From positions 1-64,000 of IMG/VR virus record IMGVR_UViG_3300010885_007382: a stretch of 64,000 nucleotides of DNA; one strand, 5' to 3'. The notes beneath the pieces are model-generated. The model worked only from the letters and a program-made list of their open reading frames with translations, was not told where the DNA came from and did not search any database. Positions 35,553-62,500 of the stretch are shown piece by piece (the stretch's first letter is position 1; each line of letters starts with the position of its first letter). Origin of the DNA: a virus. The translations under genes and the position numbers were made by a program.

Positions 35553-36161
35553 CTAGAAAACCTCACCAAAAACAAAATTCAATGTGACACGAGGACCACC
35601 ACTTCTCGGAATAGATGATGTGTGGCACTGAGTTAGTGGAATTAGAACAGATTTACCTTTCTCTGGTGGAACTCTTAGCTGATTTGTAAATCTTCCGTCA
35701 AAGTTTTCCGGGCCGTATCTTTTATGAACATAATCATAATGCTCATTAAAGAAAAATGTGTCACCATCAGCATCATTCACAAAGTATAGAAAAGTTTCGC
35801 CACGAAAGTTATCGTCGGAGTTATCTACATGTGGTGGATGATGAAAGTCTTCTGGATAAGAACCGTCTTTTGTATATAGGTTAGCTTTGACACGCCAGAT
35901 ACGATTTTGGTATCTCTTACCTTTGTATCGTTCAAGCGCCTCAACGATTGGTTGAATGACCAAAGGATAATAATGTTCCGACATTATCTTGCCATTCACA
36001 TAGAAGATGTGACCAAAGAAAGATGTGTTTAGTGTTCGGTAATCTTTGAATTGGTCATAGGTTGCTTCGGCTGTATAGTACCAAGGAAAGTTGCCATTAA
36101 GCAACTCTCTCTCGATTTCGTTTTGTTTCTCTCTTGATAGAAGGTCTTTAATGATTTCCAT
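35553..36161 (-). CDS. 2OG-Fe(II) oxygenase-like protein 3
   Basis: From MEIIKDLLSREKQNEIERE the protein has 202 residues. It has HHPPHVDNSDDNFRGETFLYFV (HxD iron site near 115) and TQCHTSSIPRSGGPRVTLNFVF (distal His and Arg). It is paralogous to the protein at 49.1-49.7 kb, with which it shares YTxKxxYxxFHxPHVD, KGKxVLxxLxTxHxSSxP and RxTLNFVF. It overlaps the sulfotransferase gene, which suggests a shared pathway. Confidence 0.82.
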   Translation of the reverse strand: MEIIKDLLSREKQNEIERELLNGNFPWYYTAEATYDQFKDYRTLNTSFFGHIFYVNGKIMSEHYYPLVIQPIVEALERYKGKRYQNRIWRVKANLYTKDGSYPEDFHHPPHVDNSDDNFRGETFLYFVNDADGDTFFFNEHYDYVHKRYGPENFDGRFTNQLRVPPEKGKSVLIPLTQCHTSSIPRSGGPRVTLNFVFGEVF

Positions 36162-36924
36162 GATGTAACTCGCTTTTATATTTTTCATCAAGATTTTTGA
36201 AATGCTCAAACAGAGTTGGGCCAAGTTCTTCTTCTGCAGGCACAGATATTTTTTCAATCTTTGATCTTATATAGTGCATATTCTTTGGACCAAATGGCAC
36301 GATGTTCTTTTCTTGAAAGTCGCCTTTGATATTCTCTAGATCGTATGTATGTTTAGGTAAGTCAAGAAACGTTTCTATTCTACTAAGTTGTTCAATTGTG
36401 TGATTGATAAAGTCATCATAGTTAATCAACAAAACGTCGGAGTGCTTTACTAGATCGATTATGGACTTAGTAGATGGTTCAACAAAGTTCTTCCACATCT
36501 CCTTTACATATCTTTCAACATCTGATTGATTGGCGTTGGGATTCTCTTTCTTGTATAGAGTTGCCCAACTAGTCATAGCACTAGGTAAGTCTCTTGTTGT
36601 GATGAACACCTTTATATCTTTTTCAAAGACCTTTTGAGCAAAAGACATATTAGATCCCCATGCTCTATTTCTATCAATGATGATTGGTTCGCTTCTATGT
36701 TTCCACATACTATCTACAACTGCTTTAGTTATATTCTTTAGTTGTTCTGGTATGGGATGTGCGATCATCGTTGGCGTCTTGTGCCACGTCTCATCAACTG
36801 CTTTTAGAACCTCAAACATTGCTGTGGTTGATGCCACATGAACATCTGGATTTTGATTTAGTATGCTGGATAATACTGTGCCGCCTGATCTAGGCAGTCC
36901 CACAAAGAAGTGAAATGTTTTCAT
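36148..36924 (-). CDS. Sulfotransferase family protein
   Basis: From MKTFHFFVGLPRSGGTVLSSIL the 258-residue protein shows the 5'-phosphosulfate binding loop GLPRSGGT (9-16) and a 3'-phosphate site around VFITTRDLPSAMTSW near 108-122. It would transfer sulfate from PAPS to a hydroxyl or amine of an unknown acceptor. Its start overlaps the end of the APS kinase gene by 35 bases, so donor synthesis and transfer are co-expressed. Confidence 0.82.
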   Translation of the reverse strand: MKTFHFFVGLPRSGGTVLSSILNQNPDVHVASTTAMFEVLKAVDETWHKTPTMIAHPIPEQLKNITKAVVDSMWKHRSEPIIIDRNRAWGSNMSFAQKVFEKDIKVFITTRDLPSAMTSWATLYKKENPNANQSDVERYVKEMWKNFVEPSTKSIIDLVKHSDVLLINYDDFINHTIEQLSRIETFLDLPKHTYDLENIKGDFQEKNIVPFGPKNMHYIRSKIEKISVPAEEELGPTLFEHFKNLDEKYKSELHHGNH

Positions 36925-37306
36925 CAAACTCACTAAAGTCCGTTATTCGAATAGTATAATCTGGTGGTTCAAATAATCTATCAGTATCTTTATACTGACT
37001 TTCTTTGATTGTGTCCATCCACACAATCTTATCAGCATTGAAAACTTTTCTCAATTGTTGTGTCGGACATATGAAATCACATACAACAACTAATCCTAAC
37101 TCATTACATGTCTTGGCTTTTTCTGACATTCTCTTTGCTTGTCTCAATCGACCAGCATCAGAAAAGTCCCAGTCATCATACATCTTTCTTATGTTATCAC
37201 CATTGAACCATATGAAAGATTTTTTACTTTCCATCAATCCGTCTATGAGGCTACAGGCAAATGTTGTTTTGCCTGAGCCAGATAGTCCAGTTATAAGTAT
37301 TATCAA
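36890..37306 (-). CDS. cysC: Adenylylsulfate kinase (APS kinase)
   Basis: The protein has GLSGSGKTTFA at 7-17, FNGDNIRKMYDDWDFSDAGR at 34-53 (the DGDxxR...DLGFS...DR motif of CysC) and LFEPPDYTIRI near the end. It makes PAPS from APS and ATP. At 138 residues it is shorter than cellular CysC (about 200), lacking part of the lid. The start codon is TTG, overlapping the rlpA-like stop. It is paired with a sulfotransferase. Confidence 0.82.
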   Translation of the reverse strand: MIILITGLSGSGKTTFACSLIDGLMESKKSFIWFNGDNIRKMYDDWDFSDAGRLRQAKRMSEKAKTCNELGLVVVCDFICPTQQLRKVFNADKIVWMDTIKESQYKDTDRLFEPPDYTIRITDFSEFDENISLLCGTA

Positions 37307-37785
37307 TTCAATCTTTCTACACTGACGGAAGATGTGCTATTCATTCCAATAGCATGAGCAGCACCGTAACTAAGATCAAGATGCCGACCTCTAACAAAGG
37401 GACCTCGATCATTGACAACTACCGTGACGCAGCCGTGGTGACATACTCGTAGATGTGTACCAAACGGCATTGTTCTATGTGCGGCTGAATATCCGTGCGG
37501 GTTGAAAACCGCTCCTGATGCCGTGTGTCTTGATAAACGTTCACCATGCCCGTAGAATGAAGCAACCATATGGCTCCCTGCATTACCATGATTACCCCAA
37601 CTAGCAGTCCAATCATTAGTATCGTCGCTTTGAATGCTGCGGCCATGTTTACCTCTTGTCACTTTCTGCTGTTGCTGTGGTTGTTGCCCGCCAAAGGCAC
37701 CATCGAAAAAATCAGATAACGGATCGGCAGCGGCCGAAGTTGTCAGTGTAATGAAAATGGCCGCAGCCGATAGAAACTTATTCAA
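37303..37785 (-). CDS. rlpA: Exported RlpA-like protein (double-psi beta-barrel)
   Basis: Residues 1-20 are a signal peptide (MNKFLSAAAIFITLTTSAAA). After a Gln-rich linker, residues 72-160 match RlpA: ASFYGHGERLSRHTASGAVFNP cut at 20, AAHRTMPFGTHLRV, VNDRGPFVRGRHLDLS, GAAHAIGM. Bacterial RlpA is a septal lytic transglycosylase for naked glycan; the Asp of NDRGPF (126) and Glu of GERL (82) match catalytic positions. No SPOR domain or lipobox. It would act in the host periplasm. Confidence 0.85.
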   Translation of the reverse strand: MNKFLSAAAIFITLTTSAAADPLSDFFDGAFGGQQPQQQQKVTRGKHGRSIQSDDTNDWTASWGNHGNAGSHMVASFYGHGERLSRHTASGAVFNPHGYSAAHRTMPFGTHLRVCHHGCVTVVVNDRGPFVRGRHLDLSYGAAHAIGMNSTSSVSVERLN

Positions 37786-37787
37786 GA

Positions 37788-38249
37788 TTAAAACTCCTTG
37801 CGTGTTTGATTACACTCGAAAGTGTACCAACCTTCATTGCGGAAGGCATCAATGATACGGTGACGATCATCAAAGATTGCGCCAACCGTATAGTTAGGAT
37901 GACGCTGTAACCAAGTCTTGATGATATCAACTTTCATCTTATCATCATCACCACGAAAACCTCGAGGGCGCATATACATGTGATCATGTGAGATCCAAGG
38001 TATATGACGATTAAGCCACTCTAAGGTATCTTCACGGAAACGCTCATCTCGGGCTGTAACGATAATGACAGCATCACCAGGACGATCATTAGCCAGCGCA
38101 TGTAGAACATCAATCACTGGCTGATATGGTTCATCCAAATGTTGCTTGGCAAAGAATGCGTCCCATTCTTTTTTACCATCAAGATGGTGCATCCGATGTT
38201 CATTATCGGCCAGCGTTCCGTCAATATCAAATACCCATACTTTATTCAT
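37788..38249 (-). CDS. HAD phosphatase, T4 PNK 3'-phosphatase-like
   Basis: The 153-residue protein has the HAD motif FDIDGTLADNEHR at 7-19, VTARDERFREDTLEWL near 68-83, and YMRPRGFRGDDDKMKVDII near 96-114, ending GAIFDDRHRIIDAFR. This is the C-terminal phosphatase domain of T4 polynucleotide kinase without the kinase. It would remove 3' phosphates or cyclic phosphates from nucleic acid ends, possibly together with the ligase-like protein at 28.5 kb. Confidence 0.8.
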   Translation of the reverse strand: MNKVWVFDIDGTLADNEHRMHHLDGKKEWDAFFAKQHLDEPYQPVIDVLHALANDRPGDAVIIVTARDERFREDTLEWLNRHIPWISHDHMYMRPRGFRGDDDKMKVDIIKTWLQRHPNYTVGAIFDDRHRIIDAFRNEGWYTFECNQTRKEF

Positions 38250-42608: not shown

Positions 42609-42797
42609 TTACGCAACTTCCTTGAAATGTTTTTGTAGTTCTGGTGACAGTTTCTTTAATAGGTCGCCACTCACACCTACACGAACAATATTTGCTAGTT
42701 CAACAATGTTGTTTGGAGTTATATTTTGTCCTGGCGCAAACTCATATAAACGAGCAGGTGAATTTTTATGATGCTCGTCTTTCTTACTCTTCGCCAT
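42609..42797 (-). CDS. Small hypothetical protein
   Basis: From MAKSKKDEHHKNSPARLYEF the protein has 62 residues. It has a helical LANIVRVGVSGDLLKKLSPEL segment. The start overlaps the end of the halogenase gene by 14 bases. Function unknown. Confidence 0.6.
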   Translation of the reverse strand: MAKSKKDEHHKNSPARLYEFAPGQNITPNNIVELANIVRVGVSGDLLKKLSPELQKHFKEVA

Positions 42798-44367
42798 GAT
42801 AGATCCTTTCCTTTGTGAAGTCATATACAGTTGGACATTTAGATGCTTTGTAGTCCCAAATATCTTTCTTTTCGTTTAGATGTTTTGTTATCTGTTCGAA
42901 CTCCTGTGCTAGATTAAAGCCACTATCATTCATCCAATGAATATAATGCATGTCAGTAGGAAAGTAGTTTAGTCCTGTTGCCACAGCATTGATACCATCG
43001 TTATTAAATCTTGTTGTAACATACTTTGACTCATAAGCTCCTATGAAGGATTCATTTCTAGAGACACCTCTCTTCAGAGATTTCTCAACATCACAATAAC
43101 TACGGTTGCCAACATCTCTCCAATACTCTGTATCATTTCTAAGTGATAGAGAATAGTGCATGGCAACGAACTGTGAAAAGTTATCAAACATTACACGGCA
43201 TGACCAGTTGTAACCATCCTTATCAAACTGTGTTACAAGATGTTCTTCCTTGTCTCTATCAAGAGCACGAAGCAAACGAACAAGGAACATGTGAACACTA
43301 TACAGTCCGTTGCTTTCTAGTGGTTCAATGAAACCAGCAGATAGACCAATAGCCGTAACATTCTTAACCCATACTCTTTCTGATACGCCTGCTCTGAATT
43401 TGATCTTGCGAAACTTTTGTTCTTCTCGCAACTTACCTTTAGACTTTAGATGTGCCTTAAATTCATCTAAGGCGCCTTCATCAGAGATATACTTATCAGA
43501 GTAAACATAGCCAGTTCCCAAACGACTCCACAATGGTGTGTTCCATACCCAACCATTGCCAAGAGCATGACAGTCGGTGTAAGGAACAATCTCTTTGCGT
43601 TTATCATCAAAAGGAATCTGTGCTGCCCATGCTGAGTTGTTTGGTAGAATATCATTGAATGAGATAAAAGGTTCATTCATTGCTTTACCAAGAAGAATGG
43701 AAGCAAAGCCTGTGCAGTCAATGAATAGATCAGCCGTAATCTCTCGTCCATCATCAAGAACTAGTTTCTCAATACCATCTTCATTGACGATAGTATCTTT
43801 GACCAATGCTTGTATGTGTTTGACACCTCTTGGTTTCACAAACTTGTCACGCAACCAAATGGCAAACTTGATAGCATCAAAGTGATAAGCAGCATCTCTA
43901 TTGAACTTATATCCTGGTAACACACCATCTTCCGTGGTTATACGATTAGCATTAACCAATGACATAATGGGATACATGTTATCAGCATAATCAGATAGCG
44001 GTGTCTCTGGATATAGAAACTTCTTTAGATACCAATCGTTCTTCGCATACTTGTTTCCTACAGTATCAATTTCACCAAACGGATAGTGAAACGTGCCTGA
44101 ACCAATCTTATAAAAGTCTGTGAAACTAATTGACATCTTATAAGTGGCGTCACATGCTTTCATAAAGTCTGTGTCTTTAATCTGGAGCAGACGCAACCAA
44201 TCATTGATAAAGCCTAACGTGGATTCACCAACACCGACTGTAGGTGTGTTTGGATCTTCGATAAGAATGATCTCTCTATTGTCCAATCTTTGTATAAGAG
44301 TTGCGGCAGTCATCCAGCCAGCAGATCCACCACCGACAATAACAATCTTATTGATTGGTTTACTCAT
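42784..44367 (-). CDS. Flavin-dependent (tryptophan) halogenase-like protein
   Basis: The 527-residue protein has the FAD motif GGGSAGW at 12-18, VGVGEST at 44-50, the catalytic Lys in ATYKMSISF (Lys77) and the conserved Glu in FIEPLES (Glu348). The WxWxIP motif reads WVWNTP. These fit PrnA/RebH-type halogenases, which chlorinate tryptophan or related indoles. The substrate is unknown. Its start overlaps the polymerase stop as ATGA, so it is a fixed part of the replication operon. Similar genes exist in T4-like cyanophages. Confidence 0.82.
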   Translation of the reverse strand: MSKPINKIVIVGGGSAGWMTAATLIQRLDNREIILIEDPNTPTVGVGESTLGFINDWLRLLQIKDTDFMKACDATYKMSISFTDFYKIGSGTFHYPFGEIDTVGNKYAKNDWYLKKFLYPETPLSDYADNMYPIMSLVNANRITTEDGVLPGYKFNRDAAYHFDAIKFAIWLRDKFVKPRGVKHIQALVKDTIVNEDGIEKLVLDDGREITADLFIDCTGFASILLGKAMNEPFISFNDILPNNSAWAAQIPFDDKRKEIVPYTDCHALGNGWVWNTPLWSRLGTGYVYSDKYISDEGALDEFKAHLKSKGKLREEQKFRKIKFRAGVSERVWVKNVTAIGLSAGFIEPLESNGLYSVHMFLVRLLRALDRDKEEHLVTQFDKDGYNWSCRVMFDNFSQFVAMHYSLSLRNDTEYWRDVGNRSYCDVEKSLKRGVSRNESFIGAYESKYVTTRFNNDGINAVATGLNYFPTDMHYIHWMNDSGFNLAQEFEQITKHLNEKKDIWDYKASKCPTVYDFTKERIYHGEE

Positions 44368-46904
44368 GAGAAGAAATCCTCTAGACTTGATACACGTTCT
44401 GATTTCCATCCGATAGCATCAAGAATGATCTTCAGTGGTTCCAGAAACGATTTGTCGAATTGTGTATTATAGTCTATATATTGGTGTAAGTCAAACTCTT
44501 CCGGTATACCTCCAGCAGGAAAACTTATGATGTTAGATTGAATGTTGTTTGGTTCCTGTAAGTAGATATACTTTAGCTTCTCACCTGTTTGTATCATTTG
44601 ATACTTAGTATCAATGCCATGCTTAGATAGAAGGTGATTATATAAGATAGCACCACGAACATGAATAGGTGTGCCTGATGCGAACAAAGTTTTCTTATCA
44701 TGCCACTTGACCAATGCATTGAGACCCCGAGGAAAAGCAATGTCCGCCAAAGGAAGAGTTTTAAATTCGTCACGGAAAGTTTCAATGAAAGATATGACAG
44801 CTTCCTCATCTGCGCCAAAGATAACATCAATTGCCTCTCTAAGTTTCTCTCTACATGCTGTTGGTGTTGAACTCTTTACCATTTCTAAGCCCATAACTTT
44901 TTTCTTAGGTTGAGCATACTGCACACCTTCGTTGTTATAGACATTTAGGATATAACGCTTCTTGGCAGTCCAGATTGCTTTGTCTGCCAATGCTTCACGC
45001 TTCATGATAATCTTTTGTTGAAAGACGTTAGTGTAATCACCAAGTTCTCCACAAGTCTTATCAATAACAGGTTGCAATTTACTTTCACAAACTCTGTCCA
45101 AGAAATTGATGGCTTTCTCAATATCTTTAACATCGTCACGCAACGTCTTAGATACCAGTTCTCCAAGGTTGAGATAAACCGAATCAGTGTCAACCGCAAT
45201 AACGAAGTCATCATTGGACTTTAGTACCTTCCTGAGATAGTCGTTAAGTGATCTTTCGATCCAGCGTATGGATAGTTGACCAGTAGTCGTGATCGCAATC
45301 GCATTGCGTAGATCGAAGAACCTAAAATATTTCGAGCCCATTGCGCCGTATAGTGAATTAAGTGAGACTTTCTTGCTGAGTTGCAGGTTCTTAAACTTAG
45401 CAATTTCCTTTTTAAGTTCTGCCTTCTTTGCTTTGTTCGTCTCATTCTCGTATTGTGTCTCTGCATCTAACATCGCCTTCTTATATACTTTACGGTCATT
45501 GAACATCTTCTCGACCATTTCAGGCATGAAGCCTTGCTTGTCACGACGATAGAACTGACCGTTAGCAGTTAAACAAACATTGTCATCGTTAAGGCTAGAT
45601 GTATCGACGCCCTTAGCAAGAAGTGTATCAACGGATACCCCATCGGCGATAATACGACGCATACCATCAGTATAATCGTCAACCTCAACAATGGTTTCGG
45701 GAGAGATGTTGCTTCCCATAATAACAGACGGATACTCGCTATTAACATCGAAAGAAGCCACCCAATCGTGAAAACCGATAAGAGGATCTTTAACGTAAGC
45801 ACCAACATATGCTGTATCCTTTTTATGCTTCTCTATAGGCGGAACAACAACGTTCTTTGACTTTAGATGATTGAAGCAAATCACATCCCACATACGAACC
45901 TGTGCGAACACATCTTCATAATTACACTTGTTATCATAGGATAGTGTCAAAGCAAGTTCAATGAACTTTCCTTTATCATCAATCTTGTCAACGAGGTCAA
46001 CGTCTTTGATGTTATAGTCGATGAACTTTTGGAAGTCATCCTTATATAGATTATGAAGTGAACCATATTCATCGTATGACAGTTTACGCTCACCAAGTTC
46101 AACATGAGCAATATTGTCTAGACGATAGGACTCTTGTGACTGTCCAGTTGGTGAATACTTTTTGTATAGTGACAATAGATCGAGTGTAGCAATACCGAGA
46201 ATGGTATAGCCTTGACCACGACGACCCATACCTAAGTCTAACACTTTGGTGTTGATAACATTCCAAGGCGATAGCTTCTTTGCTTCGTTACCATATAGTT
46301 TTGTGATACGATTTACAAGATATGGTATATCAAACTGTTCAACGTTCCAGCCAGTAATGATATCTGGATGATCTTGCTGCCACCAACCAAGAAACTTAGT
46401 GATAAGTTCATATTCACTAGCACATTTATGATAAGTAACATCCTTGCGGCTGTTTCTATAATCACCAACACCAAACGTATTGAAATGACCATTCATCTTA
46501 ACTGTGATGGCAGTCAATGGCTCTTTAGCTTGATCTGGCTCTGGAAAGCCATTCTCTGATCCAACCTCAATATCGATGTTAGCAATCTTGATGTCGTTTA
46601 TGTTCCAGTCAATAACATTTGGAAACTCATCAGCAATGAAACAATACTGATAACGAGTGTTACCATATATTCTGAAACTTTCTACATCTTCGTATTGATC
46701 AACAAAGTCACGACATTCACGAATCGATCCAGGTTTAACTGGACCGACATACTCGCCGTGAATGGTCGTGTATTTGGTTGGCTTCTTAGAATACACGAAG
46801 AGAGTCGGGCTGTAGTCAACTTTTGCTTTGACTGCCCGACCATCTTCGATACCACGATAGAGTATTCTACCGCCCCATATTTCAACGTTTGTGTAATATC
46901 TCAT
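44364..46904 (-). CDS. gp43: DNA polymerase, family B (T4 gp43)
   Basis: The 846-residue polymerase has exonuclease motif I IANIDIEVGS near 107 with catalytic Asp and Glu, polymerase motif A FDVNSEYPSVIM near 385, motif B VSLNSLYGAMGSKYF near 520 and motif C VAVDTDSVYL near 570. Length is close to T4 gp43 (898). No intein or split is visible. It is the replicative polymerase. Confidence 0.95.
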   Translation of the reverse strand: MRYYTNVEIWGGRILYRGIEDGRAVKAKVDYSPTLFVYSKKPTKYTTIHGEYVGPVKPGSIRECRDFVDQYEDVESFRIYGNTRYQYCFIADEFPNVIDWNINDIKIANIDIEVGSENGFPEPDQAKEPLTAITVKMNGHFNTFGVGDYRNSRKDVTYHKCASEYELITKFLGWWQQDHPDIITGWNVEQFDIPYLVNRITKLYGNEAKKLSPWNVINTKVLDLGMGRRGQGYTILGIATLDLLSLYKKYSPTGQSQESYRLDNIAHVELGERKLSYDEYGSLHNLYKDDFQKFIDYNIKDVDLVDKIDDKGKFIELALTLSYDNKCNYEDVFAQVRMWDVICFNHLKSKNVVVPPIEKHKKDTAYVGAYVKDPLIGFHDWVASFDVNSEYPSVIMGSNISPETIVEVDDYTDGMRRIIADGVSVDTLLAKGVDTSSLNDDNVCLTANGQFYRRDKQGFMPEMVEKMFNDRKVYKKAMLDAETQYENETNKAKKAELKKEIAKFKNLQLSKKVSLNSLYGAMGSKYFRFFDLRNAIAITTTGQLSIRWIERSLNDYLRKVLKSNDDFVIAVDTDSVYLNLGELVSKTLRDDVKDIEKAINFLDRVCESKLQPVIDKTCGELGDYTNVFQQKIIMKREALADKAIWTAKKRYILNVYNNEGVQYAQPKKKVMGLEMVKSSTPTACREKLREAIDVIFGADEEAVISFIETFRDEFKTLPLADIAFPRGLNALVKWHDKKTLFASGTPIHVRGAILYNHLLSKHGIDTKYQMIQTGEKLKYIYLQEPNNIQSNIISFPAGGIPEEFDLHQYIDYNTQFDKSFLEPLKIILDAIGWKSERVSSLEDFFS

Positions 46905-49127: not shown

Positions 49128-49715
49128 TTATTTAGTGAAAACGAAGTTCAAGGTCATTCTTCTCTCGTGGAATCGAGGTGGTGAACTGGCGTGGAGCGTC
49201 TGTAAATCAAACAAAACACCCTTGCCTTTCTCAGGAGCGACGAAGCCACTCTTTGTCACATTGTCAGTAGGAAACCGCTCATTGAACATATATGTCGGTC
49301 CATCACTATCATCCACATAATATAGAAAAATCTCACCATCACCTATTGTATCTGTCTTTTCGTCATACACATCAACATGCGGTGTATGAAAATGAAAGTC
49401 TGGATAGTCAGGCTGCTTCAGGTACATGTTAGCCTTCATACGAAACAACCGCTTCATATATGGTCGTTTCATATGTCGCTCTAATGCTCCAACGATAGGA
49501 GCAAAGTATTTGAAGTATTCCGATTGAGATTGAAAGTCATCGTATAACATATTCACAAAGAATGGCGTTTCTTTTACACCGTCTATCTGTTTAGGATAGT
49601 TTGATATGTAAGAAAAGTCACAAGTGTTATCTTGAAAGAACCACGGAATCCGAAGAGCCGACGTTTCAATCAAGTCTTGATGTTCTTTAGCGAACAGGTT
49701 ATCGATGACTTTCAT
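49128..49715 (-). CDS. 2OG-Fe(II) oxygenase-like protein 5
   Basis: The 195-residue protein has FHFHTPHVDVYDEKTD (HxD iron site), an IFLYYVDDSDGPTYMFNE strand and LQTLHASSPPRFHERRMTLNFVF (distal His and Arg). It is a paralogue of the protein at 35.6-36.2 kb. A late-type motif precedes it. Substrate unknown; a virion or host-surface protein is possible. Confidence 0.8.
   Translation of the reverse strand: MKVIDNLFAKEHQDLIETSALRIPWFFQDNTCDFSYISNYPKQIDGVKETPFFVNMLYDDFQSQSEYFKYFAPIVGALERHMKRPYMKRLFRMKANMYLKQPDYPDFHFHTPHVDVYDEKTDTIGDGEIFLYYVDDSDGPTYMFNERFPTDNVTKSGFVAPEKGKGVLFDLQTLHASSPPRFHERRMTLNFVFTK
49129..49135 (-). promoter_or_regulatory. Late promoter motif CTAAATA
   Basis: Minus-strand CTAAATAAGAG 39 bases before the holin-like ATG at 49090; it overlaps the oxygenase stop. 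Confidence 0.5.
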
Positions 49716-52795: not shown

Positions 52796-53055
52796 CATAC
52801 ATTCTTTTTCCTTTTCTTCTTAAACTTGTACCACACAAGATATACAGAACCTATGGCCATCATTATTCGTTCTTTGATAGTGTATCCACCTTTCATAAGT
52901 TGGACTCTCATTATGTTATTATCTTCTTGTAAAACAGTAATCAGATAAGCAGCCTTACGAGGAACAGAGTGACATTGAACATGGTTGTCTTTCTCAACCC
53001 AATCAGCCAGCTTGTGTAAGGAATCTATAATTTCGTTATAGTCTGTTTCAGTCAT
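52795..53055 (-). CDS. Hypothetical protein with C-terminal membrane-like helix
   Basis: From MTETDYNEIIDSLHKLADWVEK the protein has 86 residues and ends in a hydrophobic-basic segment (MMAIGSVYLVWYKFKKKRKK). It overlaps the glycosyltransferase gene by 4 bases. Function unknown. Confidence 0.55.
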   Translation of the reverse strand: MTETDYNEIIDSLHKLADWVEKDNHVQCHSVPRKAAYLITVLQEDNNIMRVQLMKGGYTIKERIMMAIGSVYLVWYKFKKKRKKNV

Positions 53056-54041
53056 ACTATGTTCTCTATAAACTGATCGGTTGCTGCTTCCCATGAGAAT
53101 TGTTTTGCTCTGGCCACAGCATGATCTCTATTGAGTTTAGACGCTTTCACAATTGCCTCTTCAAAGTGATAACTATCTGTTAGAATACCTGACTTACCAT
53201 CTTCAATAATGTAACGATTAACTTCGTTATCGAGTGCAGCAACAGGTAATCCACAAGCCATTCCTTCTAATACAACAAGTCCAAATGTATCTGTCATTGA
53301 TGGCCAAGCAAACACATCATATGCCTGTAATAGTTTAGCAATCTCTTCTCGGTTCTTACGACCAAGAAAATAAGCATCAGTATATCTCACTTTATATTCC
53401 TCTAACTGAGGTCCATCGCCGATTACATACTTAACAATGTTTGGATTGCTCACCTCTAGATATTCGATTAGGTTCTTTTCGGCTGATACACGACCGACAT
53501 AGACCGCACGAATAACACCAGTGTTCTTCCAATCAGATGGTTTGAAGATATTTGTATCAACTCCACGGGACCATATCTTTACATTCTTTATACCGAGTTT
53601 AGAACAGTAATCAACCATGGCGGGGGTTGGTACCATAACACAATTGCTGTTTCTATGGAACCAACGAAAATACCCACCAGTAATTCTTGGTGGTATATAA
53701 GCGTGTTCATAAAGGTACTCTGGATACTTAGTGTGAAAGGATGTAGTGTAACGTCTCTTATACTTTTTACAATAATATCTTGCGGCAAGACCGATTGATC
53801 CTTCTGTTGCGATATGAATATGTTCAGCTTCTTTCACTTCATCATCAGCTATACCCATAGGCAAAAGCGGCATGTAGATGCCAGTTGAAGGTTGTAAAGG
53901 TATTGTCATCTTGAATAGACCAGGGTGGACAACTCTTACAGAATGTCCACGCTTTTCTAAGTGTTCAATAGTTGTCTTTAATGTTGTAACAACACCATTG
54001 ATTTGTGGATCCCACGCATCAGTAAAGATAGTCAAACGCAT
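53052..54041 (-). CDS. GT4-type glycosyltransferase
   Basis: The 329-residue protein follows the GT-B plan: TDAWDPQINGVVTTL near 7-21, SFHTKYPEYLYEHAY near 100, VGRVSAEKNLIEYLE near 178, then the donor-site segment AYDVFAWPSMTDTFGLVVLEGMACGLPV near 245-270 with the Glu of the EX7E motif. It resembles bacterial mannosyl- or hexosyltransferases acting on lipids. Paired directly with the LpxH-like gene, as in alphaproteobacterial genomes. Confidence 0.85.
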   Translation of the reverse strand: MRLTIFTDAWDPQINGVVTTLKTTIEHLEKRGHSVRVVHPGLFKMTIPLQPSTGIYMPLLPMGIADDEVKEAEHIHIATEGSIGLAARYYCKKYKRRYTTSFHTKYPEYLYEHAYIPPRITGGYFRWFHRNSNCVMVPTPAMVDYCSKLGIKNVKIWSRGVDTNIFKPSDWKNTGVIRAVYVGRVSAEKNLIEYLEVSNPNIVKYVIGDGPQLEEYKVRYTDAYFLGRKNREEIAKLLQAYDVFAWPSMTDTFGLVVLEGMACGLPVAALDNEVNRYIIEDGKSGILTDSYHFEEAIVKASKLNRDHAVARAKQFSWEAATDQFIENIV

Positions 54042-54784
54042 TATAGTTTCCTTATAATCTCAAACTTTCCACTGTGGTGTTCAACAATAGCGGTGCAGGA
54101 TTCTACCCAGTCACCACAGTTCATATATTTAACACCATCAATAGTAGATATATTAACAGAATGTATATGGCCACATATAACCCCATCGACGCATCTCCTT
54201 TTGGCTGCATCTGCAACCACAGACTCATAGTCACCGATAAAGTTTACTGCCTCTTTGACATTATGCTTTGCCCACGCAGATAATGAGAAGCCTCGAATGT
54301 TAAGAGTTCTATATACCCATTGTAATTTAGTATTCAAGTCAATCATACAATCATAAGCCCAACCACCAACATAAGCAAGCCACTTAGCATTGGTTGTGAC
54401 CAGGTCAAACTGGTCACCATGAATAACAAGATACCTATTGTTATCTTCTCCCACATGAATACACTCATTTACTAACTCAATATTACCCAATACAGTTCCA
54501 CCATACTCACGGAGAAACTCATCATGGTTACCAGTTATATAAACAACTTTGTGCCCGTTCTTTGATAGTTTGAGAAGGTATTGTAGAACATTAGAATGAG
54601 ACTGTGGCCAATGTATTTTTTTCTTCATACTCCAACCATCAATAATATCACCTATTAGATAGTATGTTTCGGCCTCAGTAGATTTTAGAAACTCTAGCAA
54701 GAGTTCCGCATTTGAATGTTTAGTGCCAAGATGAACATCAGATATAAAGATAGAGCGATACTTTCTGCGATCTTTATTTTTCAA
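54041..54784 (-). CDS. UDP-2,3-diacylglucosamine diphosphatase-like phosphoesterase (LpxH-type)
   Basis: The 247-residue protein has metallophosphoesterase motifs ISDVHLG near 14-20, IGDIIDG near 45-51, GNHDE near 87-91, HGDQF near 122 and CGHIHS near 203. The set matches LpxH-like UDP-2,3-diacylglucosamine hydrolases in lipid A synthesis or related lipid-sugar hydrolysis. Start codon is TTG with a strong AGGAGG four bases before. A late-type motif lies upstream. Confidence 0.85.
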   Translation of the reverse strand: MKNKDRRKYRSIFISDVHLGTKHSNAELLLEFLKSTEAETYYLIGDIIDGWSMKKKIHWPQSHSNVLQYLLKLSKNGHKVVYITGNHDEFLREYGGTVLGNIELVNECIHVGEDNNRYLVIHGDQFDLVTTNAKWLAYVGGWAYDCMIDLNTKLQWVYRTLNIRGFSLSAWAKHNVKEAVNFIGDYESVVADAAKRRCVDGVICGHIHSVNISTIDGVKYMNCGDWVESCTAIVEHHSGKFEIIRKL

Positions 54785-54812
54785 AGGGCCTCCTTTTAGG
54801 CTGGTCCACGTC

Positions 54813-54819
54813 TATTTAT
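54813..54819 (-). promoter_or_regulatory. Late promoter motif ATAAATA
   Basis: Minus-strand ATAAATAGACG 29 bases before the TTG start at 54784; predicted leader about 23 bases. Confidence 0.5.
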
Positions 54820-54962
54820 CCAGCACGAACCGTCAGCCCTTTTTCTTTCAGTATCTTCATATACTCTATCTTCAGTTCCAATAGATTATCTTTATTCACC
54901 TCTTTGTCTTTTACATACTCAGCGAATTGTTTATCAAATTCTGCCTGAGTAATAGAGTCCAT
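54816..54962 (-). CDS. Small acidic-basic hypothetical protein, 48 aa
   Basis: ATG at 54960-54962, overlapping the upstream stop, TAA at 54816-54818. It starts MDSITQAEFDKQFAEYVKDK. Helical. It lies between the acyl-CoA dehydrogenase and the late motif. Function unknown. Confidence 0.55.
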   Translation of the reverse strand: MDSITQAEFDKQFAEYVKDKEVNKDNLLELKIEYMKILKEKGLTVRAG

Positions 54963-56620
54963 CAGAGGTCGGCATTCATCATTGTATCGCTACCTTTACG
55001 AATACGGTTCAAAAGAAACTGTGTCTTGGGTGCGATCCGATCCATGAAATACTGGGCTGTATTGTGTCTGTCTTTATCGTCAGTAGCAAGACAAATCTTC
55101 ACATGAGCAAGACCAAGCAATACAATACCAAAAATCTCCATGTAATCATATGCGGCAGAACCAGCATTGTTTGGATTCTTCATAGCATGACCAACTAGCC
55201 ATTCTGTCGCCTGCTTCAAATGATCAACGGATGTAGTCATTGGCTGAACAATAGGATTGATACCATTCTCATAAGCGCCGGTTAAGAAATGAGCACTATC
55301 AGCCAAGAATGTTTTTATACCCCGCCCAAAGTTCTTAGGGAGTTTACGACCAACAAGATCCATTGCCTGTATGCCGTTGGCACCTTCGTAAATCTGAGAT
55401 ATGCGAACATCCCGAACAATCTGCTCCATACCCCACTCTTTAATATAACCATGTCCTCCAAAGACTTGCTGTGCCTTGACAGCATTCTCAAAACCATAAT
55501 CAGTAAACATACCTTTCAATACTGGTGTAATAAGTCCTAATCGTTCCTGTGCGTCATCTGATTTATCATCAACGAGCAAGGCTGCTTCATATAAACACAA
55601 TCTTGATGCTTCGTTGAAAGATCGTATATCGAGAAGCATACGACGGACATCAGGATGGTTAATAATAGCCACAGCGGGGCCTTTAGGATCAGTGATTCTA
55701 GAACTTTGTATCCGTTCTCTAGCATATTCCAAAGCATTTTGATAAGCCAACTCCGATTGTCCAAGTGCCTGTAGAGCACAGTTAATACGCTCCTCATTCA
55801 TCATGTGGAACATAACATTTAAACCCTTACCTCTTTCGCCAAGTAGATAACCAACAGCACCATCATAGTTCATAACACAAGCAGGTGAACCTTTGATACC
55901 CATCTTGTGTTCAATAGAACCAACTGATAGTTTGTTGTATTCACCATCACCATGTATCTTAGGAACAATAAACAAACTGATACCTTTTGTTCCTGGTGGA
56001 TCACCTTCAACTCTTGCTAATACAAGATGAATAATGTTTTCTGTTAGGTCATGTTCACCACATGAAATGAATATCTTTTGACCTGTAATTAAAAATTCTG
56101 TATCTCTACCAGTAGAAATGGCTTTTGTTTTGAGCAAACCTAGATCAGTACCACAATGTGGTTCTGTCAAGTTCATGGTACCAGTCCATTCACCAGAGGC
56201 CATCTTAGGAACATAATTATCTTTTTGCTCTTGTGTACCTTCTGCTAGAATAGCTGTAATCGCACCCTTAGTAATACCAGGGAACAAACTGAAGGCCATG
56301 TTACTAGAACAAACAAACTCATTGACGGCTGAGAATAGAACATTAGGCAATCCCTGACCACCATATTGTTCTGACACATCTAATGCGCCCCAGCCACCTT
56401 TACTAAACTCTTCATATACTTTGTGAAATGTACCTGGCACAGTAACATCATTAAACACGCCTCTTTCACAACCATTGTCACCATCAGCATTAGTAGGAAA
56501 GATAATCTCTTCACATAGCTTTGCTGCTTCATTGATAATAGGTTCAGATAGATCGTTGTCAAACTTTAAAACATCACGAAGAAGAAATAATGCGGATTCA
56601 GTCGGTGCTTTGTATTTCAT
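54962..56620 (-). CDS. Acyl-CoA dehydrogenase, DmdC/FadE-like, full length
   Basis: The 552-residue flavoenzyme has GGWGALDVSEQYGGQG near 75-90, GEWTGTMNLTEPHCGTDLG near 143-161 (FAD/substrate site), MNEERINCALQALG near 274, VFGGHGYIKEWGMEQIVRD near 386-404 and the catalytic Glu412 in IYEGANGIQ. A C-terminal helical domain follows as in acetyl-CoA dehydrogenase-like and DmdC proteins. It oxidises an acyl-CoA thioester and passes electrons to ETF, which is not encoded here. All active-site parts look intact. Such an enzyme is rare in phages. Confidence 0.9.
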   Translation of the reverse strand: MKYKAPTESALFLLRDVLKFDNDLSEPIINEAAKLCEEIIFPTNADGDNGCERGVFNDVTVPGTFHKVYEEFSKGGWGALDVSEQYGGQGLPNVLFSAVNEFVCSSNMAFSLFPGITKGAITAILAEGTQEQKDNYVPKMASGEWTGTMNLTEPHCGTDLGLLKTKAISTGRDTEFLITGQKIFISCGEHDLTENIIHLVLARVEGDPPGTKGISLFIVPKIHGDGEYNKLSVGSIEHKMGIKGSPACVMNYDGAVGYLLGERGKGLNVMFHMMNEERINCALQALGQSELAYQNALEYARERIQSSRITDPKGPAVAIINHPDVRRMLLDIRSFNEASRLCLYEAALLVDDKSDDAQERLGLITPVLKGMFTDYGFENAVKAQQVFGGHGYIKEWGMEQIVRDVRISQIYEGANGIQAMDLVGRKLPKNFGRGIKTFLADSAHFLTGAYENGINPIVQPMTTSVDHLKQATEWLVGHAMKNPNNAGSAAYDYMEIFGIVLLGLAHVKICLATDDKDRHNTAQYFMDRIAPKTQFLLNRIRKGSDTMMNADL

Positions 56621-56765
56621 TCTTCTTTTCCTTCTCTTCTAGATATTCCATCCATTCTTTAACACGCTTCAGTTCACCTTTTTCAAACTCTCTTGAGTGG
56701 CTGTAGATTACAGGCCATGCCATATGTCCATCAATAAGAAGTTTCAGTTCTTCCCACTTATCCAT
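56598..56765 (-). CDS. Small charged protein, 55 aa
   Basis: ATG at 56763-56765, TGA at 56598-56600. It starts MDKWEELKLLIDGHMAWPVIY and has a Glu/Lys-rich helix; overlaps both neighbours. Function unknown. Confidence 0.55.
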   Translation of the reverse strand: MDKWEELKLLIDGHMAWPVIYSHSREFEKGELKRVKEWMEYLEEKEKKNEIQSTD

Positions 56766-57699
56766 TCTTCATACTTTCTATGATATCGTCTAGTGTATGC
56801 TCTGGTTTAAATTTTAATACTGTTTCTGCGGTTGTTGTATCAGCAACAAGATAAGGAACGTCACCATTGCGACGATCCTCATAAACTATTTCCATCTCAC
56901 CATTATGAATGATTTCGTTTACTTTGTCAATCACTTCCTTGACAGTATATCCAGTGCCTGTTCCAATGTTACAAGCAATATTAGAACCTTCATTGTTACT
57001 TATATACTCATAGGCACAGATATGAGCCCGGCAGATATCAATCACATGAACATAATCACGAACACACGTTCCATCTTTCGTTGCCCATGTGTCTCCGTAA
57101 ATAGCTGCTTTCTTGTTTCTGACTAGAAGAGGAATGAGATGTGTTTCTGGATTATGTTCTTCATGTAGATTTGCTTTAGCGTTTCTACCACAGGCATTGA
57201 AATAGCGTAGGCGGGCTACATTGATACCATCAAGAGTAGATAATATATCTTCACATATTGCTTTTGTTTTACCATAGACAGAAACAGGATTTATTGGTCG
57301 TGTTTCCATTATGTGTCCAGCTAGTGGATTGATGGAGTCACCATACACAGCGGCAGTAGAAGAAAAGATAAAGTTCTTTATTCCGTAGTATTTTGCTGCG
57401 TCGATGGCTCCGAATGTGGCACCAATGTTGTTCCTGTAGTATGCCCATGGATCTCGTTCACCCTCTTCCACTGAAATGTATGCGGCAAAGTGGAATAAGC
57501 AGTCGATACTCTTTGATCCGAAATAAAGGGAATTGACAGACATATCAATACGGCTATAAACATCATACAGATGCCTAAGATGCGGTTTATCAACTTTATC
57601 TACTCCTATGATGTGACAGTCTGGATATGACTGCCGCAACTCGTAGCACATATGGCTGCCGATAAAACCGTTACAACCCGTGACTACGAATGTTTTCAT
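56758..57699 (-). CDS. galE: UDP-glucose 4-epimerase
   Basis: From MKTFVVTGCNGFIGSHM (Rossmann GxxGxxG at 8-14) the protein has 313 residues. SSTAAVYGDS near 115 and SVYGKTKAICE near 140 give the Ser and Tyr-x3-Lys catalytic residues. RYFNACGRN is the GalE substrate region. It interconverts UDP-Glc/UDP-Gal or related sugars. Overlaps the next gene by 4 bases. Confidence 0.88.
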   Translation of the reverse strand: MKTFVVTGCNGFIGSHMCYELRQSYPDCHIIGVDKVDKPHLRHLYDVYSRIDMSVNSLYFGSKSIDCLFHFAAYISVEEGERDPWAYYRNNIGATFGAIDAAKYYGIKNFIFSSTAAVYGDSINPLAGHIMETRPINPVSVYGKTKAICEDILSTLDGINVARLRYFNACGRNAKANLHEEHNPETHLIPLLVRNKKAAIYGDTWATKDGTCVRDYVHVIDICRAHICAYEYISNNEGSNIACNIGTGTGYTVKEVIDKVNEIIHNGEMEIVYEDRRNGDVPYLVADTTTAETVLKFKPEHTLDDIIESMKNG

Positions 57700-58688
57700 T
57701 TTTTCTCCACAACATGTTTGAGGCACATACGAATTGAGTCATCAACTTTCATCTTGGCTTCCCAACCAAGTTCATTCTTTGCTTTATCACAATCAGGAAT
57801 ACGCACAAGAACATCGTTCTCATAATTACCAACTGTTTCGTAAAGCAAGAAGTAATCATCAAACAATCTAAACTCTTTTGAAGCAATGTCCTTGATCTTC
57901 TCTGCTAGAACTCGCATAGAGATAGGTTCAGGATTACCTAGATTGTATATCTGGTTATCTGTCTTGTTAGAGAATGAATGATCAGCAATAGCAGCAGCCA
58001 CTTCATCAATCCACGTGAAGCAACGTACCTGACTACCATTACCGATGATAGGTAGTGGATGCTTTCTCTCGATTACAATGTTTTTGATGTAATCAGCAAA
58101 CACATGGGAGATACCAACTTCAGCATCTTCACTCTTTTCATATGGTGTAATGATATTGAACGGACGCCAGATTGTATATTTCAATCCATGCTGCTTTAGG
58201 TATGCCTTAGAAACACGTTCACCAACAAACTTTGATAGTCCGTAATCTGTATATGGTGCTGGATTTGTATCAATGATATCTTCCGCTACAGGATAACCAA
58301 TCTTCTGTGGACAGTTCTCATAGACCATAGATGATGAAATGTAGATTACCTTTAGCACACCATTCTTAACAGCAGCCCTAAGAACATTATCATGTAGAGA
58401 GATATCTTTATACATCTCACCACAATATTTATTGAAGCCACCGACGCCGTAGATTGTAGCAGCAGCCTGAATGATACAGTCTGGTCTAGTCTGTTCAATC
58501 AATCTATCAACGCTGATACGGTCTGTAAGATCACACTTGATAAACTGATAATCATTACCGGCGATACCAAGACGTTCGCCATATCGTGCTAAGTTATCAA
58601 CACCGACAACAACATAACCCTTTTTCAATAGCAGCGGAATAACTGCCTGCATCAATGAACCTTCACTACCTGTCACTAAAACCTTCAT
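57696..58688 (-). CDS. NAD-dependent sugar epimerase/dehydratase
   Basis: The 330-residue SDR protein has VTGSEGSLMQAVIPLL at 4-19, ISSSMVYENCP near 117 and YGLSKFVGERV near 145 (Tyr-x3-Lys). The Rossmann loop is GSEGSL rather than the usual GxxGxI. It resembles bacterial nucleotide-sugar epimerases; exact substrate not assignable. Part of the sugar cluster. Confidence 0.85.
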   Translation of the reverse strand: MKVLVTGSEGSLMQAVIPLLLKKGYVVVGVDNLARYGERLGIAGNDYQFIKCDLTDRISVDRLIEQTRPDCIIQAAATIYGVGGFNKYCGEMYKDISLHDNVLRAAVKNGVLKVIYISSSMVYENCPQKIGYPVAEDIIDTNPAPYTDYGLSKFVGERVSKAYLKQHGLKYTIWRPFNIITPYEKSEDAEVGISHVFADYIKNIVIERKHPLPIIGNGSQVRCFTWIDEVAAAIADHSFSNKTDNQIYNLGNPEPISMRVLAEKIKDIASKEFRLFDDYFLLYETVGNYENDVLVRIPDCDKAKNELGWEAKMKVDDSIRMCLKHVVEKK

Positions 58689-59932
58689 AGAACTTCTCCT
58701 GCTTTATATATGCCGGTATTACTTAGCTTACTTTTTGGAAACATCTTCCATAGATCAGCAATAACACAATCGTAGCTAAAATCTGTTGTCTTGTATCCGA
58801 ATGTCTCTGGATTGAGAAAATCATCATGTGGTGTCATGACAATCACAGCATCGAATGTTTTGTTGTTTGGTATATTCATATCTTCAATATGCATCGGGTC
58901 AACCATATAAGCAGTCACACCATGCTTCTTACATACCTTCTTCATCTTGAATGAAAGACTGTTTCGTGTATCGTCACAGTTCTTCTTGAATGTAGCACCG
59001 AGAATTAGAACGTTCTCAATGTTAGGATTTATTTCTCTGATACGGTTGAAGATATAATCAGGCATGCCCTCATTGATAAGGAAGCTAGTTTGAATAAGAT
59101 CGCCGAAAGGAATATCAGAAAGAAGAAAACGACCATCTTTAAATAGACAAGGCCCTCCGACATTAGGTCCAGGGTGAGGTACATCCATTCTTGGATAGTC
59201 GTAATTACATGCGTCAATAACTTTATCAATGTTTACTCCATGCTTTTCACCAATCATCCAGAACTCATTGGCAAACGCAAAAGTAACATAACGATACATA
59301 TTTGTCATCAACTTGCCAATCTCTGCCTCTTTGGGAGACAGATGAAAGATTTGATTTGTGATAAAGGTACTAAAGAAATCTCTAGCAACCTCAAAAGAAC
59401 GAGTTGTAAAAGCACCAACAAGCTGTGGTAGCTTGCCAGTTTCAATAATAGACTTACCTTGAACAACTCTCTCAGGACAGAATACAAGATGATAATCAGC
59501 ACCTTCTGCCCAGCCATGTTTCTTGGCAATATGTTTACGAAGAACCTCTGTTGTTCCTGGTGATACTGTAGAACGAAGAACAATCAATTGTCCTACATTC
59601 ATACGAGGAATAAGAGTATCATCAACAAAATTAAAAAGATCATCAAGTCTGGCATTACCTTCTCCATCAACTGGCGTGCCAATCATAATGGCGATAACAT
59701 CAACGTTTTTGATAAAGTCAAAGTCTGTCGTAAATATCAAACGATTGTTGTCAAGATTGCGGCGAAGAATAACACCAGCACCTTCTTCAACATATGGCAC
59801 AATACCTTTGGTTAGACAATCAACATTATACTGATTGATATCTATACCATAAACTGTATGACCTGCTTCAGCAATCACACAAGCAAATGGAAAGCCAACA
59901 TGACCACCTGCACCAATAACTGCTACTTTCAT
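58685..59932 (-). CDS. UDP-sugar dehydrogenase (WecC/Ugd family)
   Basis: The 415-residue protein has the NAD motif IGAGGHVGFPFACVIAEAGH at 6-25, IGTPVDGEGNARLDDL near 94, LRSTVSPGTTEVL near 128 and GPNVGGPCLFKDG near 255 with the catalytic Cys. It oxidises UDP-hexose C6 to the uronate (UDP-ManNAc or UDP-Glc type). It gives an acidic sugar for a surface glycan. Confidence 0.87.
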   Translation of the reverse strand: MKVAVIGAGGHVGFPFACVIAEAGHTVYGIDINQYNVDCLTKGIVPYVEEGAGVILRRNLDNNRLIFTTDFDFIKNVDVIAIMIGTPVDGEGNARLDDLFNFVDDTLIPRMNVGQLIVLRSTVSPGTTEVLRKHIAKKHGWAEGADYHLVFCPERVVQGKSIIETGKLPQLVGAFTTRSFEVARDFFSTFITNQIFHLSPKEAEIGKLMTNMYRYVTFAFANEFWMIGEKHGVNIDKVIDACNYDYPRMDVPHPGPNVGGPCLFKDGRFLLSDIPFGDLIQTSFLINEGMPDYIFNRIREINPNIENVLILGATFKKNCDDTRNSLSFKMKKVCKKHGVTAYMVDPMHIEDMNIPNNKTFDAVIVMTPHDDFLNPETFGYKTTDFSYDCVIADLWKMFPKSKLSNTGIYKAGEVL

Positions 59933-60711
59933 TTTCTAAACCTTTCGCAATCTATCTTAGTCAAGCATCCGTTGACCGCACTTCTATCACCAAGTTCGAC
60001 AACATCATATGCCTTGACGCCCTCTCTAGCACCGATCCACATTTCATCATACATTCTTACAGGTGCTTGTTTGATCCAAGCATCTGTAGTTATCTCTTGT
60101 AATTTATGCCACCATGTCTTATCAATCGGGTCGGGCAGTTGTCTTATATGACTTGAGTTTGCCCACCAAAAGTTACCACAGAAATGTGGCGAAGGTTCTT
60201 CATGATAATCACCACCAGCAATGTCATAACTGTTTAGAGCATTCTCACAAAACTGCCAGTTTCGTAACACAGACCAATTCATGAAAGAACGCCAGTAAAA
60301 GTATTCCTTATGTTTGACAATGTTATTGACATTGACGTTAGTGGAATATGAAGTTGAGCCTTTGGAATGAAAGTATAGAACCTTCATGTCTTCAGTCTTA
60401 CAATCCTCATAGATACGCTTTAGTGTAATATCTTCCGTGCATGACTTGTTAGTGTTTCTATTATAGAGCATGTCACGGTCGTTGTCAAATGGATTCTTGA
60501 CAGCGGTTAATTCCATAGGAATGTTATAGGACTCACATAGTCGGACAAACATAGCAATACGATCATCGTCCTGAGCAATACAGGTGACTTTCATCTTATC
60601 AATTTGTGTATTGAGACCTGAATCCTCTATCACCTTCATTTGCTCAAGAAAGATAGATGACCAGATTAGAGGATCATCTGTTAGATGAATATGATAATAT
60701 GCTCTAATCAT
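59929..60711 (-). CDS. Putative glycosyltransferase
   Basis: From MIRAYYHIHLTDDPLIWSSIF the protein has 260 residues. It has LYFHSKGSTSYS and GDYHEEPSPHFCGNFWWANSSHIRQLPDP (cut here), patterns shared with small glycosyltransferases of phages and bacteria that contain an HSKG and a WWANSxxIRxLP motif. The catalytic DxD is not clear. Context in a sugar cluster supports the call. Confidence 0.6.
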   Translation of the reverse strand: MIRAYYHIHLTDDPLIWSSIFLEQMKVIEDSGLNTQIDKMKVTCIAQDDDRIAMFVRLCESYNIPMELTAVKNPFDNDRDMLYNRNTNKSCTEDITLKRIYEDCKTEDMKVLYFHSKGSTSYSTNVNVNNIVKHKEYFYWRSFMNWSVLRNWQFCENALNSYDIAGGDYHEEPSPHFCGNFWWANSSHIRQLPDPIDKTWWHKLQEITTDAWIKQAPVRMYDEMWIGAREGVKAYDVVELGDRSAVNGCLTKIDCERFRK

Positions 60712-61924: not shown

Positions 61925-61927
61925 AGT

Positions 61928-62500
61928 TTACTCCTTAATCCAATACCATGCGTCTTGCTCAGGAAGATGAATTGGTGTTGCTCCCATCTCTTTAGCAAAT
62001 TCATCAACCGCACGACCAACGCCTTCAATTACACGATAGTCATGGCCAGCAAATACTCCGCCCTTCTTAATCTTAGGCCAGTAGTTGCGACAGTCTGTTA
62101 GAACCTGAGCATACTCATGTAGACCGTCAATGAAGATAAAGTCAAACGCATTGTCTTGAAACAACGGAACAGCATCGTCGGATGTTAGACGATAATGCTT
62201 CCATCTATCACCAAACTCTGCGGTACGACGACGCATATTTTCATACTTCTCGTCCTGTTGACGCTGACTGATATAACCTTCTGGATACCAATCTTGATAT
62301 GCCTGATAAGGATCCACACCATATAGCTTCAAGTCTGGTCTATTCTTGAGAAAGAACCAACTCGTTGGTGCTTCATCAACACCGATTTCAATACCAACAG
62401 GATTAACAAAGTCCTTTAGTAATGGAAGAACATCTTTACCAGATACCCATTGTGGGTCTGGCATAGGATCAATAATTGTATATGTTACACCGTTACTCAT
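61928..62500 (-). CDS. Class I SAM methyltransferase
   Basis: The 190-residue protein has NPVGIEIGVDEAPTSWFFL near 32 (motif I), DFIFIDGLHEYAQVLTDCRNYW near 118-139 and KKGGVFAGHDY near 144. The HEYxxVxxD layout is that of Methyltransf_24 proteins, often O-methyltransferases in sugar clusters. Substrate unknown. Confidence 0.82.
   Translation of the reverse strand: MSNGVTYTIIDPMPDPQWVSGKDVLPLLKDFVNPVGIEIGVDEAPTSWFFLKNRPDLKLYGVDPYQAYQDWYPEGYISQRQQDEKYENMRRRTAEFGDRWKHYRLTSDDAVPLFQDNAFDFIFIDGLHEYAQVLTDCRNYWPKIKKGGVFAGHDYRVIEGVGRAVDEFAKEMGATPIHLPEQDAWYWIKE

Follow-up and report, generated by a model that had tools for sequence, protein, structure and literature searches.

Does a virus that carries an APS-kinase-like gene overlapping a sulfotransferase (ST) gene make its own PAPS and use it to place sulfate on a target? 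Two genes in a 64,000-nucleotide stretch of viral DNA (the window), from a virus record that spans 93.8 kb and is possibly incomplete, raise this question. An earlier note on this DNA had described a short CysC-like gene with the motifs GLSGSGKT, GDNIR, and DFSDAGR, an ST gene overlapping it, and an oxygenase gene overlapping the ST in turn. This description holds: the CysC-like ORF is present and reads GLSGSGKTT, FNGDNIR, and DWDFSDAGR, and the three minus-strand ORFs lie and overlap as described.

All genes of the locus run on the minus strand. The left flank is a gene for a DPBB (RlpA-like) protein with a signal-peptide-like start (37303..37785), whose stop overlaps the TTG start of a gene for a lid-less, APS-kinase-like P-loop kinase of 138 amino acids, here called a mini-kinase (36890..37306; Pfam APS_kinase, PHROG_10255). 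The PAPS-type ST gene (36148..36924; Sulfotransfer_3 by Pfam profile) comes next. Comparison with relatives places its conserved start at the ATG at 36924 (MKTFHFFVGLPRSGG; 258 amino acids) and not at the alternative GTG at 36933 (261 amino acids), so the kinase and ST genes overlap by 35 nt. The conserved start of the flanking 2OG-Fe(II)-oxygenase-like gene (35553..36161; 202 amino acids), the ATG at 36161, lies within the final ST codons, and the two-gene cassette of kinase and ST extends from the DPBB stop to this ATG (36162..37302). A nucleotide search of phage records returned no match. Given that homologues in related viruses are 48-57% identical and that dN/dS between two relatives is ~0.3 for the kinase and ~0.1 for the ST, these are real genes.

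The window DNA polymerase is T4-like and closest to those of cyanophages, at best 49%, and lends no support to the rhizobial setting that had been considered earlier. Beside it lies a tryptophan-halogenase-like gene (42784-44409; PHROG_2928, E 1e-147). Elsewhere, the window contains a glycan cluster (53052-63570) with a glycosyltransferase, three epimerase/dehydratases, a UDP-glucose dehydrogenase, and a C-methyltransferase; an acyl-CoA dehydrogenase gene inside this cluster (54962-56620) is unusual in a phage.

The window kinase scores 63.7 bits against Pfam APS_kinase (cut-off, 21.1), with only profile positions 4-91 of 152 matching; a sequence profile search of the PDB likewise pointed to APS kinases, with the match confined to residues 4-85, and the PHROGs label for PHROG_10255 is "kinase." Its AF2 model has a pLDDT of 96, and the best 37 matches of this model in a Foldseek search of the PDB were all APS kinases, at a query TM of about 0.7-0.85. 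Pfam, AF2, and Foldseek therefore agree on an APS-kinase fold with a P-loop. We also considered a split polynucleotide kinase formed with the HAD_PNKP gene at 37788-38249 and rejected it, as the PHROG_505 match reaches only E 8e-4 and the kinase carries the FSxxxR motif of APS kinases.

In Mycobacterium tuberculosis CysC, Asp480, Arg483, Phe492, and Arg497 make contact with APS at its ribose, adenine, and phosphosulfate, Asp478 of the LDGD motif is a Mg2+ water ligand, and disturbing the lid, which holds Arg559, Lys562, and Phe576, abolishes CysC activity (PMC4373884). Residues N35, D37, R40, F48, and R53 of the window kinase correspond to CysC positions 478, 480, 483, 492, and 497; the last four, at the acceptor site, are identical, and Asp478 is replaced by N35. 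Kinase relatives in IMG/VR were taken as the best 80 of 276 candidate stretches, and residues and lid motifs were counted in 91 mini-kinases. Equivalents of Asp480 (90/91), Arg483 (91/91), Phe492 (91/91), and Arg497 (89/91) are kept, the P-loop Lys and the first two of these being essentially invariant across diverse members, and the Asp478 equivalent is Asn in 90 of the 91, the window kinase included. The KG(L/H)Y lid motif occurs in none of the 91 mini-kinases versus 38 of 40 canonical relatives, and in the alignment the lid, with its Arg559, Lys562, and Phe576 equivalents, is missing from every one of them. The missing lid, already raised as a concern in the earlier note, is thus real and common to the whole family (0/91 with the lid motif), which forms one clade versus canonical APS kinases (SH-aLRT, 99) in a tree built on few columns and with many open forks. 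Judged from the alignment, the mini-kinases have kept a predicted phosphosulfate-reading acceptor site and lost the lid that would close it. Since the lid is gone, we have not filed the window kinase as a CysC; it may still work like one, and the catalytic step that we infer for it is that of an APS-kinase-like enzyme.

The ST scores 50.1 bits against Pfam Sulfotransfer_3 (cut-off, 27), and PHROGs annotates its family as function unknown. It carries a GLPRSGGT 5'-phosphosulfate loop and an R112...S120 3'-phosphate motif (alignment numbering), and G10, L11, R13, G15, T17, R112, and S120 are invariant across eight divergent STs. In known sulfotransferases, an Arg/Ser pair eight residues apart contacts the PAPS 3'-phosphate (SULT structures). 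The nearest solved structures in a PDB profile search were the protein-tyrosine sulfotransferases TPST1/2 (TPST1 match, E 1e-17). The Glu of the GEET motif is catalytic in TPST, and at this position the window ST aligns with sss/STT. Given that the TPST Glu region is missing, tyrosine sulfation as the specific target is not adopted here. A single-sequence ST query of IMG/VR returned no match; an ST profile query did yield loci.

An oxygenase-seeded search gave nine relatives at this locus. Five of them, some near-identical, keep the order DPBB-kinase-ST-oxygenase (L083, L084, L085, L086, and L089), and the remaining four (L082, L087, L088, and L090) retain the DPBB and oxygenase genes but have neither kinase nor ST. 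The kinase was found nowhere in the records of these four, and the ST was absent from the three records searched for it (L082, L087, and L088), the record that contains L087 being 172 kb long. The DPBB stop of L082 passes directly into the oxygenase ATG (GATTGAATTGATGGAAATC), and this empty allele, which reads GATTGAATTG up to the junction and ATGGAAATC after it, makes the empty site almost base-exact. The slot is occupied by two tRNA-like sequences in L087 (a tRNA reading made by eye) and by a small secreted-type ORF in L088, and it therefore takes variable cargo. Kinase and ST form a two-gene cassette, present or missing together.

Both cassette genes are under purifying selection between L085 and L086 (kinase, dN 0.06/dS 0.21; ST, dN 0.09/dS 0.90), while the oxygenase has hardly changed between them (dN 0.002). 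The kinase evolves faster than the flanking genes, and the oxygenase, which is 79-88% identical across relatives with and without the kinase-ST pair, evolves far slower than either cassette gene. Because it is retained in relatives without kinase and ST, we do not count the oxygenase as part of the unit. The three-gene order that the earlier note had expected in related phages is accordingly borne out for kinase and ST, which are neighbors in five loci and both missing in four, but not for the oxygenase, which stays without them; the note's worry that the genes might not be neighbors in relatives is answered by the five loci in which the kinase adjoins the ST. The oxygenase reaches 21.8 bits against Pfam 2OG-FeII_Oxy_3 (PF13640), below the cut-off of 27, with an HVD...CH...R motif visible. 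PHROG_274 calls this family (window 35553-36161) "DNA endonuclease V," a name that is probably wrong given that Pfam indicates 2OG-FeII_Oxy, and the window carries a second oxygenase copy, 38% identical to the first, at 49128-49715.

Other viruses pair kinase and ST in differing gene orders. Every ST ORF in the kinase-seeded viral loci touches the kinase (ST upstream in L004, L005, and L020; an ST fragment upstream in L006). In the reciprocal scan, the ST profile gave 80 viral ST loci, 16 of which have a mini-kinase within 4 kb, in 15 cases within two ORFs; the 16 include near-copies (L187-L190 and L196) and reduce to 12 distinct loci. Among these ST-seeded loci, a mini-kinase is present in 13 of the 14 closest to the window ST, and none has a canonical APS kinase. 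A similar ST lies beside a canonical APS kinase in a betaproteobacterial locus (L157). The tree requires at least two separate ST associations, and the ST-neighbor kinases need three gains or losses. Among 50 mini-kinase virus records, 8 have an ST (PF13469) match and most have no detectable ST; that the kinase implies sulfation was rejected as a general rule, as the neighbors in 80 kinase-seeded loci are mostly not STs. In two loci (L195:2892-3809 and L191:4779-5672), a divergent mini-kinase beside an ST is fused to an N-terminal domain that has no Pfam match and by eye is possibly oxygenase- or cupin-like.

Larger versions of the arrangement include an HxGH nucleotidylyltransferase (NTase) and DUF2061. 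The order in L186 is ST, NTase, and a kinase fused to DUF2061; kinase::NTase fusions lie close to an ST in L191, L192, L246, and L259, with DUF2061 next in the first two, and further fusions occur in L022 and L023. The nearest matches to the NTase are NMN adenylyltransferases of the NadM type. A NadM-like nucleotidylyltransferase is present in 28 of the 50 mini-kinase virus records, and in kinase-seeded marine viruses the NTase stands beside the kinase in most loci, usually without an ST. A profile search of the window and the remainder of its 93.8-kb record, which may be incomplete, found no NTase, and DUF2061 was not found in the window. DUF2061, a small membrane protein, is fused to or beside the mini-kinase or ST at L186:3595-4206, L191:6354-6662, L192:5614-5826, L194:4767-4958, L032:6444-6677, and L046:6419-6643; because it is present in 6 of the 43 genomes that carry canonical APS kinases, we rejected it as an indicator of sulfate activation in general. 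Cultured Casjensviridae phages carry the mini-kinase in a protein of ~246 amino acids (L181:3489-4229, Stenotrophomonas phage Bhz60; L272:2989-3735; L273:2989-3726) that is convenient for bench tests, and in Bhz60 a NADAR-domain gene precedes the kinase::NTase gene.

Mini-kinases also occur in cells. Our cellular set (L101-L132) comprises 32 loci or genomes from marine Alphaproteobacteria, SAR11 among them. In 9 of the 32 loci, aprM, aprB, and aprA (aprA and aprB by NCBIfam) are no more than 6 kb away from the mini-kinase, in co-directional, convergent, and divergent arrangements, and in 27 the NTase accompanies the mini-kinase. At the genome level, aprA is above cut-off in 25 of 32, plus one partial match, CysD was found in none of the 32, and Pfam ATP-sulfurylase (PF01747) was found in 2. 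In one SAR11 genome (L127), the mini-kinase overlaps a Sulfotransfer_3 gene. Of seven SAR11 strains in a published table, the five listed with cysC are also the five listed with aprA, and sat is reported absent in the text (PMC5069961). Because the genomes are incomplete and mostly of one lineage, the genome-level co-occurrence is weak, and adjacency is the stronger indication. These loci suggest an APS context for the cellular mini-kinases and make the HxGH NTase a candidate for the missing ATP sulfurylase.

We consider it reasonably probable that the window pair is a mobile sulfation cassette, a reading that builds on the observed gene order, cassette behavior, residue conservation, and recurrent ST-kinase linkage. 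The mini-kinase would phosphorylate the 3'-OH of APS made and supplied by the host, and the ST that overlaps it, with its conserved PAPS-binding residues, would move sulfate from the resulting PAPS to an acceptor. This acceptor would most likely be a small molecule or glycan belonging to the infected cell or the virion; a glycan is plausible given the window sugar cluster at 53-64 kb. With a PAPS maker of its own beside the ST, sulfation would not depend on a host PAPS supply that is low or fluctuates. Use by the ST of PAPS from the kinase is the most economical reading, because the APS-binding residues are kept and the pair is conserved. PAPS would, however, have to form without the canonical lid, whose disturbance inactivates CysC (PMC4373884), and this is the strongest objection; the Asn in place of Asp478, the many mini-kinase viruses without an ST, and the greater frequency of the NadM-like NTase also count against it. 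The original proposal that the two genes make PAPS and place sulfate therefore stands as to the conserved pair and its APS-site residues, while the kinase step is one that we infer.

The main rival for the wider mini-kinase family is NadR-like NAD salvage, in which the mini-kinase would be the nicotinamide riboside kinase half of a pair with an NMN adenylyltransferase, and its ST adjacency would be incidental or a re-use. The NadM-type affinity of an NTase that sits next to the kinase or is fused to it in many viruses and in SAR11 supports this, as does the NADAR-domain gene in phage Bhz60, which fits NAD chemistry, and a HIGH nucleotidyltransferase and a P-loop kinase are joined in phage NadR (PMC9503650). 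However, the profile search of the possibly incomplete window record gave no NTase, the kinase profile and fold match APS kinases and the best matches listed include no NadR, the arginines that bind phosphosulfate vary little or not at all, and NAD salvage explains poorly the STs that adjoin the kinase or kinase::NTase in many viruses and the cellular copies beside aprMBA. Moreover, the fusions found here run kinase-NTase. The domain order of NadR is the reverse. We regard this explanation as unlikely.

A catalytically dead mini-kinase that senses nucleotides or binds the ST as a subunit, while the ST uses host PAPS, would accommodate the loss of the lid and Asp478 and the faster evolution relative to flanking genes, and inactive APS-kinase-like domains do exist, e.g., in Penicillium ATP sulfurylase (PMC13213808). 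Yet a dead domain would usually lose the P-loop Lys and the Asp480 and Arg483 equivalents, which are essentially invariant here, and stand-alone kinases are common; we find this account quite improbable. We give very little credence to a single pathway of kinase, ST, and oxygenase, as proposed earlier, in which the oxygenase would hydroxylate the acceptor and the ST would sulfate the new hydroxyl. The three genes overlap in the window, and DUF6445 or other oxygenase-like proteins adjoin ST or kinase in L185, L194, and L246, but these loci use different protein families, no oxygenase-like gene lies between ST and kinase in L004, L020, L187, or L193, and the window oxygenase persists, little changed and slowly evolving, where the other two genes are missing. 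Given the DUF6445 and similar proteins in other viruses, hydroxylation ahead of sulfation is still a possibility.

Beyond the proposed mobile sulfation cassette itself, we tentatively raise a broader proposal, which we hold to be possible but doubtful: the lid-less APS kinase and a 120-140-amino-acid HxGH NTase, as an unrecognized ATP sulfurylase, would constitute a miniature sulfate-activation system shared by viruses and SAR11-type bacteria, sometimes fused as a ~260-amino-acid PAPS synthetase and accompanied by DUF2061. It would feed STs in viruses and be the missing AprBA partner in Pelagibacterales (sulfite to APS to sulfate plus ATP), and the window would hold its kinase-ST part. The aprMBA-linked mini-kinases of cells, whose genomes yielded no CysD and almost no Pfam ATP-sulfurylase, offer a testable candidate for APS handling in abundant ocean bacteria. 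A lid-less kinase that makes PAPS would change the view of what APS kinases need.

Viral cysC genes (PMC10914622) and viral sulfotransferases are already known. The literature searched, with most subscription papers outside its scope, contained no description of the lid-less family, the ST cassette, or the kinase::NTase/DUF2061 versions, and the recurrent kinase-ST pairing across many viruses suggests an undescribed viral route of sulfation. With APS kinases (M. tuberculosis CysC, 4BZP; the human PAPSS kinase domain; A. pernix, 2YVU), the mini-kinase shares the P-loop kinase fold and topology, the DxxR and FSxxxR acceptor-site residues, and an association with STs and sulfate activation. It differs in the deletion of a ~22-residue lid (RDPKGLYKKARAGEIxxFTG), in place of which it has W(M/V)DT...DT(N/D)xxF, in the change of LDGD to xN(A/G)D, and, in the window, in a total length of only 138 amino acids. 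The window ST shares the GLPRSG(G/S)T loop and the R...S eight residues apart with other Sulfotransfer_3 STs (TPST1/2; the cyanophage S-SRM01 ST), but identity falls to 20-30% outside its own clade, GEET is not conserved, and the STs of phages have a mini-kinase as partner. The viral fusions L022, L023, L191, and L192 run kinase then nucleotidylyltransferase, as does the bifunctional human PAPSS, and an ST is close by in four loci; however, PAPSS has ~620 amino acids versus ~260, the viral NTase is NadM-like and not a Pfam ATP-sulfurylase, and the window has none. Virome surveys count phage cysC as sulfur-assimilation genes, and 62 such auxiliary metabolic genes in freshwater phages were read as assimilatory sulfate reduction (PMC10914622). 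The window shares with these a virus-borne APS-kinase-like gene, but its cassette points to sulfation; if many phage cysC genes prove lid-less and travel with an ST or HxGH NTase, a viral sulfation route can be tested with small stand-alone proteins and the assimilation reading will need revision.
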